This document shows positions 1-2,373 of a stretch of 64,000 nt of DNA, one piece after another. The DNA is from Herbinix hemicellulosilytica (GTDB lineage Bacteria; Bacillota; Clostridia; Lachnospirales; Lachnospiraceae). The stretch spans positions 434,001 through 498,000 of the forward strand of contig NZ_CVTD020000008.1 of the NCBI RefSeq assembly GCF_002904165.1, in the 5' to 3' direction. Under the pieces are notes generated by a model. That model did no database searches. It had not been told where the DNA came from and saw nothing but the letters and a program-made list of their open reading frames with translations. The position numbers and the translations under genes were made by a program. Every line of letters begins with the position of its first letter. Position 1 is the stretch's first letter.

Positions 1-86
1 TGAACCATGTAACAAAATCGCTCTTATATTATACAGATTTTTTTTTTACAGTATTCTTTTACTAAATTTAAAATTCTTTCATTCAT
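1..86 (-). pseudogene. Start of a nucleotidyltransferase-like gene, broken at an A10 run and cut by the window edge
   Basis: An ATG at 86-84 overlaps the TGA of the upstream kinase gene by the four bases ATGA and has an AGGAGG about six bases before it, so it looks like a translationally coupled start. The frame runs for 20 codons and stops at a TAA just after a run of ten A (plus-strand T38-T47). If one A is added to the run, or two removed, the frame continues to the window edge and reads NLYNIRAILLHGS, which resembles the Gly-Ser strand motif at the start of minimal nucleotidyltransferases. It may be a pseudogene, a slippage-controlled gene or a sequencing error at the homopolymer. The expected Asp-x-Asp motif would lie outside the window, so the family call is tentative. 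Confidence 0.4.
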
Positions 87-985
87 ATAGTAGCCTCCTG
101 TATTTCATTGGCAAATTCTTTAATATTCATCATTTTGCTGTTATATCGTAAATTTTGGATTATTTCATACTGTTCATTGGAAATATTTGCGCCTAAAATA
201 ATATTTTTATAAAAAATATTATTTATGAAATCATGCCGCATTATATTATTTTTATAGTCTGTTAAGATATAAATCTTTTTTATATTCTCAATCGATAAAT
301 CCTTACATTTTTTTAAATTTATATCTATAACTTTTTTGTATTCACCTGTAAGATAGCCTTTTATAATATAATGCAGTTTTAAATTACAGTCTGCAAAGAA
401 AGCGGCTTCTACATCCGGATTTATTGCTGGAAATCGTTCCAATACTTCAATGCTTTTTTTGTCTATGAGAACGAATTCATCTGTATATACATCCCATCCG
501 TTTATATATGCATACAAAACAGAAGATGTTTTTCCTGAACCTTTAGCCCCTATTATTAAATATAATGATTTATCACGACCAATTAAAGCTGCATGAAAAC
601 CAAAGGGATAAAGTTTTAGCTTACATTCCCTTATTATTTCGCAGATTTTGCTTCTTAAATATGAATAGATATTTTGAATGTCTCTAATAAAGAGAGTATA
701 TGAAAATTCTTCCTTAATCAGTATTTCATCAGAATCTATTTCAATGGTTCTTGTACTATACTGATCTTTCCATATTTCCCTACGGTTTAGAGGATGATAT
801 CCAACTCGAATGCAATTTTTTAGTGTATCACGGCTGTATTCTTGATACGGCAAAATAGTTATACTATATTTAGGACAATATTTTAGTACTTGATTGCCTC
901 CTAATTCCTTACTCAACAATATAACTTGATCTTTTATATCAAAAGATGAGTATATGTTTATGTTATAAAAAGAGAAATAAATCAT
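83..985 (-). CDS. HPr-kinase-like protein of a RiPP (lasso-type) locus
   Basis: A 300-residue protein with a P-loop GAKGSGKT at about residues 146-153, preceded by FGFHAALIG and followed by DVYTDEF at about 165-171. This is the layout of the HPr kinase C-terminal domain, but the protein is not canonical HprK and no ptsH lies beside it. Stand-alone HprK-like kinases of this size occur in Firmicutes lasso peptide clusters (PadeK, ThcoK), where they phosphorylate the C-terminal Ser of the precursor. Here two small peptides directly upstream both end in Ser, which fits that role. An AAAGGAGC lies before the ATG. The gene is co-directional with the precursors and overlaps the next gene by 4 bp. 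The kinase fold is well supported; the substrate is inferred. Confidence 0.75.
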   Translation of the reverse strand: MIYFSFYNINIYSSFDIKDQVILLSKELGGNQVLKYCPKYSITILPYQEYSRDTLKNCIRVGYHPLNRREIWKDQYSTRTIEIDSDEILIKEEFSYTLFIRDIQNIYSYLRSKICEIIRECKLKLYPFGFHAALIGRDKSLYLIIGAKGSGKTSSVLYAYINGWDVYTDEFVLIDKKSIEVLERFPAINPDVEAAFFADCNLKLHYIIKGYLTGEYKKVIDINLKKCKDLSIENIKKIYILTDYKNNIMRHDFINNIFYKNIILGANISNEQYEIIQNLRYNSKMMNIKEFANEIQEATI

Positions 986-1008
986 TATATGTAAGCTCCT
1001 TTTCGCAA

Positions 1009-1047
1009 ATATCGTATGGAAATAGAAGAGCTATTTCCATACGATAT
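1009..1047 (-). promoter_or_regulatory. Perfect 17-bp stem hairpin between precursor and kinase genes
   Basis: Arms 1009-1025 and 1031-1047 are perfect complements (arm ATATCGTATGGAAATAG) around a five-base loop. The hairpin lies in the 122-bp gap between the stop of the proximal precursor and the kinase start, just ahead of the kinase ribosome binding site. No T-run follows on the minus strand, so it is not a classic terminator. It more likely acts as an mRNA stabiliser, processing site or partial attenuator that keeps precursor expression above kinase expression; this role is inferred. Confidence 0.6.
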
Positions 1048-1107
1048 AATATGTAATAAATTAATTAATGCTTTGAGTGGTTTATGTTTTAGATTACAAG
1101 TTGATTT

Positions 1108-1248
1108 TTATGAAAGTAACCAAGTAATGAGTTTTTCATTCTTAGCCAAGAATCCACTTTCGCAGTCATCAAACATTGTAATCATGTCGATGTCGTTGTC
1201 TCTGGTCTCAACAGATGCTTCAAATTCGAGATATTTTTTATCTTCCAT
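1108..1248 (-). CDS. Putative RiPP precursor peptide A (46 aa)
   Basis: A 46-codon gene starting at 1248 with an AAAGGAGG about seven bases upstream. The protein has an acidic, variable N-terminal leader (starting MEDKKYLEFEA) and a C-terminal half that is nearly identical to the neighbouring peptide: MFDDCESGFLAKNEK, then LITWLLS at the end. The last residue is Ser. The pattern of variable leader, conserved C-terminal core, tandem copies and adjacent modifying kinase is typical of ribosomally made, modified peptides. If a lasso ring formed from Gly32 to Glu38 it would hold seven residues, but the usual Thr at leader position -2 is absent. The coding frame is well supported by the paralogue; the peptide class is not settled. 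Confidence 0.75.
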   Translation of the reverse strand: MEDKKYLEFEASVETRDNDIDMITMFDDCESGFLAKNEKLITWLLS

Positions 1249-1300
1249 TATAATACCTCCTTTACAATATTCGGATATTATGTAATAATGTTATATTGGA

Positions 1301-1438
1301 TTATGACAGTAACCATGTAAGAAGCTTTTCATTCTTTGCCAAAAAACCGCTTTCACAGTCATCGAACATAGTTATCATGTCGATATTCTCATTTGATTCA
1401 TTTGTAGCTTCGGGCTCAAGATATTTTCTTTCTTCCAT
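1301..1438 (-). CDS. Putative RiPP precursor peptide B (45 aa)
   Basis: A 45-codon gene at 1438-1301, with AAAGGAGG ahead of its ATG, 52 bp upstream of its paralogue. The leader starts MEERKYLEPEA and so contains a Tyr-x-x-Pro, the motif that the recognition element (B1) binds in many lasso leaders. The last 27 residues differ from peptide A by one residue (LLTWLLS in place of LITWLLS), although the third codon positions have diverged, which points to purifying selection on the core. One Cys, at residue 28, is conserved in both. It ends in Ser, like peptide A. The two copies probably arose by duplication and may give the same mature product. Confidence 0.75.
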   Translation of the reverse strand: MEERKYLEPEATNESNENIDMITMFDDCESGFLAKNEKLLTWLLS

Positions 1439-1481
1439 TGAATTTACCTCCTTTTATTTATTTTATTAATCACATAAACCA

Positions 1482-1517
1482 CTCTTTGTATATTTGATAA
1501 ATCAAATACACAAAGAG
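1482..1517. promoter_or_regulatory. Near-perfect palindrome in the divergent regulator/precursor gap
   Basis: Arms 1482-1498 (CTCTTTGTATATTTGAT) and 1501-1517 (ATCAAATACACAAAGAG) are complementary at 16 of 17 positions with a two-base centre. It sits 44 bp upstream of precursor B and about 80 bp from the presumed promoter of the response regulator. No T-run follows on either strand and the loop is too short for a good hairpin, so a protein-binding operator is more likely than a terminator. LytTR proteins normally bind direct repeats, so another regulator may also be involved. Confidence 0.5.
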
Positions 1518-1596
1518 GGATTTATATTTATGCACTATAAATACCATTTTCTGTTTATTAATGCAATAAATTTACAGGCAAAAGTAGTAAAAATAC

Positions 1597-1624
1597 TGGA
1601 CAAACGTATAAAATATGTTATAAT
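1597..1624 (+). promoter_or_regulatory. Probable sigma-A promoter of the LytTR regulator
   Basis: TGGACA at 1597-1602 and TATAAT at 1619-1624 are separated by 16 bp. They lie about 45 bp before the regulator start codon, and an AAGGGGGG ribosome site lies between. The -35 element differs from TTGACA by one base. Confidence 0.55.
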
Positions 1625-1668
1625 CTTACATATCTTGACTGCTATGACATAAGGGGGGTGCTAGTGTT

Positions 1669-2373
1669 ATGGACAATAAAATAAAAATTGCAGTATGTGA
1701 TGATGATAAATTTATTTTAAAAATAATAGAAAATAAGATAAAGGAAGTTCTACGCGAGATAAATTTTAATGACTATGATATATATTTGTTTCATAAAGGA
1801 TTAGATCTGTTAAAATCTAAATTGAATTACAATCTGGTTTTATTAGATATAGAGATGGCAGACATTGATGGCTTATCCATGGCTGTAAGATTAAATGCTT
1901 TAGAAAGTAAACCATTAATAATATTTATTTCGGCTCATAGAGATCTAATTGAATTAGGGTACCATGTAAAAGCATACAGATTTCTGACAAAGCCTATTAA
2001 TGACCTTTTATTTAGTGAAGCTATTGTAAATGCAATAAATGAGATTATACTTATAGATAAGTTAGTAGTAGTTGATAATGACAAAAAAATATTGCTGGAT
2101 TTGAAAGATGTCATATGTGTAGAAGCATTAGGAGAGGGATGTTGTATTTATACAACCCAAAATAATTACATAAAAAAGGAACCTTTAAAATATTGGCTGA
2201 AAAGATTGCCAAAGAAAGATTTTATACAGACACATAGGGCTTATATAATTAATTTAAGACATATTGATTTTATAGAACTAAATCAAATATGCATGAAAAA
2301 CGGTATAAAAATACCTGTTTCTGTGAGAAAACGAAAAACATTAAATGATATCTTACGTACATATTATAAGTAA
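1669..2373 (+). CDS. LytTR-family response regulator
   Basis: A 234-residue two-domain regulator. The N-terminal receiver domain shows CDDDKF (acidic pocket, residues 9-14), LLDIEM (phospho-acceptor Asp near 63), ISAH and the Lys of FLTKP near 108. The C-terminal half is a LytTR DNA-binding domain with FIQTHRAYIINLRHI. This is the class of AgrA and of bacteriocin regulators such as ComE and PlnC. It is transcribed away from the precursor genes across a 230-bp gap, so it may control them. No histidine kinase is visible; one may lie to the left of the window or be encoded elsewhere. The ATG is preceded by AAGGGGGG. Function as a LytTR regulator is secure; its targets are inferred. Confidence 0.9.
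   Translation: MDNKIKIAVCDDDKFILKIIENKIKEVLREINFNDYDIYLFHKGLDLLKSKLNYNLVLLDIEMADIDGLSMAVRLNALESKPLIIFISAHRDLIELGYHVKAYRFLTKPINDLLFSEAIVNAINEIILIDKLVVVDNDKKILLDLKDVICVEALGEGCCIYTTQNNYIKKEPLKYWLKRLPKKDFIQTHRAYIINLRHIDFIELNQICMKNGIKIPVSVRKRKTLNDILRTYYK

Follow-up and report, generated by a model that had tools for sequence, protein, structure and literature searches.

The left end of the window, the 64,000-nucleotide stretch analysed here (G000:C8:434001-498000), carries the start of a minus-strand operon that, judged from its sequence, is a real RiPP operon, neither of lasso nor of linear polyphosphorylated peptide (LPP) type by the features tested, but a third kind of HprK/NTase RiPP. We consider it fairly probable that the complete reading holds, namely that this is a RiPP operon of an undescribed type in which the core is modified by a radical SAM (rSAM) enzyme, a Ser is phosphorylated and capped by a nucleotidyltransferase (NTase), and the leader is removed by an M16 peptidase. 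Precursor architecture and operon gene content are based directly on sequence, fold and synteny, and we infer the chemistry and the order of the steps. A further 20 kb to the left on the same contig was also examined, and the features are listed below in minus-strand order; coordinates preceded by C8 are those of the contig, and the others are those of the window.

1669..2373, plus strand: LytTR response regulator, divergent, in an insert of ~9.4 kb
1474..1525, minus strand: 25-nt inverted repeat, 88% complementary, upstream of precursor B (z -5.2)
1301..1438, minus strand: precursor peptide B, 45 aa, ending WLLS (MEERKYLEPEATNESNENIDMITMFDDCESGFLAKNEKLLTWLLS)
1108..1248, minus strand: precursor peptide A, 46 aa, ending WLLS (MEDKKYLEFEASVETRDNDIDMITMFDDCESGFLAKNEKLITWLLS)
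1009..1047, minus strand: perfect 17-bp hairpin separating the precursor genes from the enzyme genes (z -5.4)
83..985 (C8:434083-434985), minus strand: HprK-like kinase 1 (K1), 300 aa, with His131, the Walker A motif GAKGSGKTSS and a TDE motif
C8:433416-434086 (start at 1..86, mostly left of the window), minus strand: NTase, Pfam PF18765/PF01909
C8:432357-433406 (left of the window), minus strand: HprK-like kinase 2 (K2), by homology to K1
C8:431260-432384 (left of the window), minus strand: M16 peptidase, HxxEH-x76-E
C8:430230-431276 (left of the window), minus strand: RRE/M50-like (PqqD-like) membrane protein, RRE by fold
C8:429892-430152 (left of the window), minus strand: small membrane protein
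C8:428054-429880 (left of the window), minus strand: B12-radical-SAM enzyme (B12-binding and rSAM)
C8:427327-428004 (left of the window), minus strand: CPBP protease

Peptides A and B have in common a C-terminal block of 27 residues with a single substitution, and over these 27 codons 12 were changed synonymously and one non-synonymously (dN 0.015, dS saturated; NG86). An AGGAGG ribosome site lies upstream of each gene. The core FDDCESGFLAK[NK][ED]KL[IL]TWLLS was present in all four precursors compared (A, B and those of the congener G006 and of Anaerocolumna sp. AGMB13025), the two orthologues matching peptide A at 23 and 21 positions of the 27-residue block (85 and 78%). Since a nearly identical core recurs in two other genomes, the block is far beyond chance, and this recurrence, together with the synonymous divergence and the separate ribosome sites, confirmed the original prediction of two real precursor genes. 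The precursors, of ~46 residues, combine a leader that varies with a core that is nearly fixed; the C-terminal Ser, to which that prediction had also drawn attention, is invariant in all four, as are the aromatic residues Phe26, Phe33 and Trp43, and an invariant Cys29 lies near the invariant Ser31, Thr24, Thr42 and Ser46. A single-sequence scan of plasmids with precursor A gave no close relative, and a precursor profile gave no match in viral contigs.

From K1 through the RRE protein, successive genes overlap or are almost contiguous, and the order precursor-K1-NTase-K2-M16-RRE/M50-rSAM-CPBP is common to G006 (L007) and to the completely sequenced, named genome of AGMB13025 (NZ_CP121445.1; L009), while the small membrane protein is absent from the G006 cluster. 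Identity to the window proteins was 53-55% for the rSAM enzyme, 50-51% for RRE/M50, 43-47% for the NTase, 36-39% for M16, 35-36% for CPBP, 32-34% for K1 and 33-37% for K2. The peptide is thus held more tightly than the enzymes, with 78-85% identity in the block against 32-55%, and a core that stays almost constant while the enzymes diverge leads us to expect a defined product whose target is conserved. A short leader-core precursor, an RRE, a modifying enzyme and a leader peptidase are therefore found together in one operon in three genomes. The RiPP enzymes are encoded no more than 10 kb leftward of the precursors, all on the minus strand, and the proposal of a RiPP, and specifically of another phosphorylated RiPP, stands for this reason.

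The cluster was present in 2 of 34 genomes within the genus, and no further cluster was found with the RRE/M50 sequence or profile in ~1180 genomes drawn, with overlap between draws, from the order, family and class, the two short sub-matches in that survey being fragments. A search of 329 genomes of the phylum with an rSAM profile turned up no other close match, and single-sequence scans gave no close relative of RRE/M50 in viral contigs and plasmids or of K2 in genome contigs and plasmids. The same rSAM profile gave three matches in genome contigs, the orthologous cluster in L009 and two relatives of 36-39% identity (L010 and L011, the latter at a contig end), and only radical SAM proteins of 21-34% identity in viral contigs; rSAM matches on rhizobial and Lawsonia plasmids sit in unlike clusters and were rejected. 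Separately, the 36% identical B12-rSAM gene in a Clostridia MAG (L010:175-2307) is preceded by a 52-aa ORF ending SGLVTKAFVG, and is possibly another small rSAM peptide system.

A single insert, placed at a hotspot next to tRNA-Leu(CAA), contains both the operon and the LytTR gene. The site is empty in two congeners (G007 and G005), a NUDIX gene on the left being ~200 bp from tRNA-Leu, an anti-sigma-like gene and polA on the right, and in G000 the same flanks are separated by ~9.4 kb holding the whole operon and the regulator (L003:3303-12724, the right end being window position 2724, compared with L097, L099 and L102). A third congener (G020) has a different gene at the site, and it is this variety of contents, with the two empty sites, on which the hotspot reading is based. 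The G006 cluster lies ~0.9 Mb away from the tRNA-Leu site. No att-like repeats of at least 10 bases were present at the insert ends, and the insert showed neither an integrase nor a terminal repeat.

K1 gave no match in Pfam and only a weak one in NCBIfam (HprK_rel_A, E 0.002); the HprK-like assignment comes from its fold only, the predicted structure (pLDDT 83) being of PEPCK/HprK type, with Z 10.5 to PEPCK and Z 9.2-9.3 over 114-122 residues to the catalytic domain of L. casei HprK/P. This bears out the earlier assignment of an HprK-type kinase beside the precursors. The operon contains a second HprK-like kinase, K2, which lies outside the window and was not visible when that assignment was made. 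Homology between K1 and K2 extends over ~116 residues surrounding the P-loop (hhalign probability 96.6%). In both kinases the Walker A motif is preserved, along with a His that precedes the P-loop and an acidic motif (TDE/SDD). The NTase is without a close relative of known function. In G000 its frame from the ATG at window position 86 stops after 20 codons, the remainder being open in another frame past an A10 run (T10 on the plus strand at window 38-47), and the gene is intact in G006 and AGMB13025; the frame break could be explained by an assembly error, by phase variation or by slippage on the A run.

An RRE protein had been expected to the left and is present there, joined to a membrane protein. 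In the M50-like protein, the first ~85 residues adopt the RRE fold, matching the TigE RRE best (Z 11.2, rmsd 1.9 over 85 residues), followed in order by MccB, MibB, PbtF, TbiB1 and PqqD. Its HExxH motif is degenerate, HE[LV]W[LM], with the second His lost and the distal Asp-Gly retained, and the M50-like protein may therefore be a pseudoprotease; the membrane part was modelled at pLDDT 66.5 and gave a weak daptide-protease match (E 0.0097). The M16 active site is complete in all three genomes, as are the three CPBP motifs. The best named model for the rSAM enzyme was ApyD, a RiPP C-methyltransferase making beta-methyl-Tyr (PMC11117315), at 259 bits against a cut-off of 750, and the RiPP C-methyltransferase model gave 126 bits against a cut-off of 282.

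The 17-bp hairpin has a stable counterpart at the equivalent place in both orthologous clusters. It is likely an attenuator or a processing site, and its placement would fit an excess of precursor mRNA over enzyme mRNA. The 25-nt repeat upstream of precursor B may be a regulator site or a 5'-leader hairpin, both being candidate roles. One arm of this repeat, ACATAAACCACTC, was found again, inverted, at 1075-1087 after precursor A.

Given these components, a pathway can be proposed. The RRE of the M50-like protein would bind the leader and bring the peptide to the membrane. The B12-rSAM enzyme would C-methylate (or crosslink) the conserved core. Phosphorylation of a Ser would fall to one HprK-like kinase or to both, the most likely site being the invariant C-terminal residue, which is the first candidate target because of this invariance, with Ser31 as the second; Ser31, Thr24 and Thr42 are, however, equally invariant, which argues against singling out the C-terminal residue. 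The NTase would then cap the phosphate with a nucleotide or a sugar, as with the hexose of pseudomycoidin in vivo, and the M16 peptidase would cut off the leader. Processing or immunity may be the role of CPBP and the small membrane protein, and the LytTR or agr-type regulators would turn the cluster on. The product is probably a phosphopeptide, either linear or crosslinked locally, that acts as a bacteriocin or a signal. That the operon represents a new RiPP class, with a B12-rSAM-modified core, a membrane RRE-pseudoprotease and a phospho-nucleotide or phospho-sugar cap placed on the C-terminal Ser by two HprK-like kinases and the NTase, combining lasso-type end-capping with a non-lasso scaffold, is a tentative proposal that we hold with well under even confidence.

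The core is more conserved than any of the enzymes, and this would also be expected if the peptide were a carrier from whose fixed core a small molecule is cut, as in scaffold- or cofactor-type RiPPs such as PQQ, mycofactocin and the pearlins. PQQ biosynthesis combines M16, RRE and rSAM proteins, a set that the present operon recalls. The cluster is, however, rare and patchy (two of the 34 congeners and none further in the ~1180 genomes) and lies in an insert, unlike a cofactor pathway, which makes this explanation unlikely. Slightly less likely again is a kinase-lyase route, in which Ser or Thr would be phosphorylated for elimination and Cys29 would then add, closing a thioether ring of the kind found in class III/IV lanthipeptides; the phosphate would be transient. 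The proximity of Cys29 to the invariant Ser and Thr residues and the presence of two kinases are consistent with such a route, but Pfam and NCBIfam revealed neither a phosphoSer/Thr lyase nor a lanthipeptide cyclase among the operon proteins.

The closest systems to the phosphorylated RiPP proposed here are the LPPs and the paeninodin/pseudomycoidin peptides, both of which are without the rSAM/M16 part. The LPPs, linear polyphosphorylated peptides encoded by lpp clusters in Bacillota, carry several phosphates placed by their kinase on an internal Ser, S3 of the core (PMC13381572, 2026). Like the present system, they are non-lasso RiPPs with an RRE, an HprK-like kinase and an NTP transferase, and are patchy and horizontally moving; the kinase and transferase are present here by the fold of K1, the homology of K2 to K1 and the Pfam assignment of the NTase. 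The LPP systems, however, have an SpI-type leader peptidase, a discrete RRE and an MsbA-like exporter, whereas here there are M16 and CPBP proteases, an RRE-M50 fusion, a second kinase and the B12-rSAM enzyme, and no signal peptidase of SpI type was matched among the operon proteins with Pfam or NCBIfam. Their conserved N-terminal YxxPxVLxHQxIxFETxxS, followed by variable C termini, is the reverse of the variable leader and fixed core seen here, and this motif is absent from the four precursors.

The rSAM enzyme likewise recalls the aminopyruvatides (ApyA-ApyD; PMC11117315), with an ApyD-kind B12-rSAM in a RiPP pathway, but here there is no P450 or separate methyltransferase, the rSAM score is below the ApyD cut-off, and no MNIO, which defines that class, was found in the operon with Pfam or NCBIfam. 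In both the subtilosin A and the present systems an rSAM enzyme occurs with M16 half-proteases and membrane proteins. Subtilosin A depends on AlbA, AlbE and AlbF, AlbA being a SPASM sactisynthase, and is without a kinase or NTase. The SynChlorMet cassette pairs an HprK-like protein (ScmC, NCBIfam TIGR04249) with rSAM and PqqD proteins, its rSAMs being PqqE-like; the kinases here matched ScmC only marginally (E 0.006-0.05, cut-off 125 bits). The same enzyme combination was not found in the literature searched, subscription papers being mostly outside its reach, and to our knowledge this is the only kind of HprK/NTase RiPP with a B12-rSAM and an M16 peptidase.

A paeninodin-type kinase phosphorylates the C-terminal Ser of its precursor, and the pseudomycoidin NTase adds a hexose to the phosphorylated peptide in vivo (PMC8498205). 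The original prediction had considered a divergent lasso group. In a lasso peptide of paeninodin type, a cyclase elsewhere in the genome would thread the precursor and its C-terminal Ser would be phosphorylated. A precursor ending in Ser, a kinase (its activity here being predicted), an NTase and an RRE are indeed common to both, but the macrolactam cyclase, B2 peptidase and D transporter are missing. The window cluster and the ~20 kb on its left contain no Asn-synthetase-like cyclase, and neither orthologous operon has a cyclase or B2 peptidase; the sole PF00733 match in the genome (contig C24) begins MCGIAGF and is an ordinary asparagine synthetase, and the best genomic score for the transglutaminase-like B2 peptidase (PF13471) was 11.2 bits against a cut-off of 26. 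The anticipated minus-strand ABC exporter was likewise not found: no such gene in this region belongs to the operon. Of the [Y/W]xxP leader motif, only YLEP in peptide B is seen, the Tyr-x-x-Pro being absent in A, G006 and AGMB13025. The lasso interpretation consequently fails, and we regard it as highly improbable.

The LytTR regulator was confirmed at the predicted position and shares the insert with the cluster, and LytTR regulators lie near all three clusters. A complete agr system (LytTR regulator, histidine kinase, AgrB and AgrD) adjoins the G006 and AGMB13025 clusters (L007:913-3845 and L009:13669-16605), making quorum control of the cluster likely on this gene content. The AgrD peptides of the two systems are very different, and the three LytTR regulators are mutually only 24-27% identical and are therefore probably not an orthologous set; upstream of the precursors, no convincing conserved direct repeats of LytTR-box type were found. 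It is very doubtful that the peptides themselves are AgrD-like autoinducers feeding the LytTR regulator, as small size, a single Cys and the neighbouring LytTR and agr genes might suggest, since the AgrD model TIGR04223 matched the neighbouring true AgrDs and not A, B or the AGMB13025 precursors, AgrB is absent from the window cluster, and the peptide genes adjoin modifying enzymes.

The combination of an HprK-like kinase and an NTase was already known in phosphorylated lasso peptides, to which the linear LPPs were added in 2026. Here the pair occurs with wholly different core machinery (B12-rSAM, M16 and RRE-M50), which suggests that Ser phospho-capping may be a portable RiPP module. Three orthologous clusters, one of them in NZ_CP121445.1, make the class testable at once.
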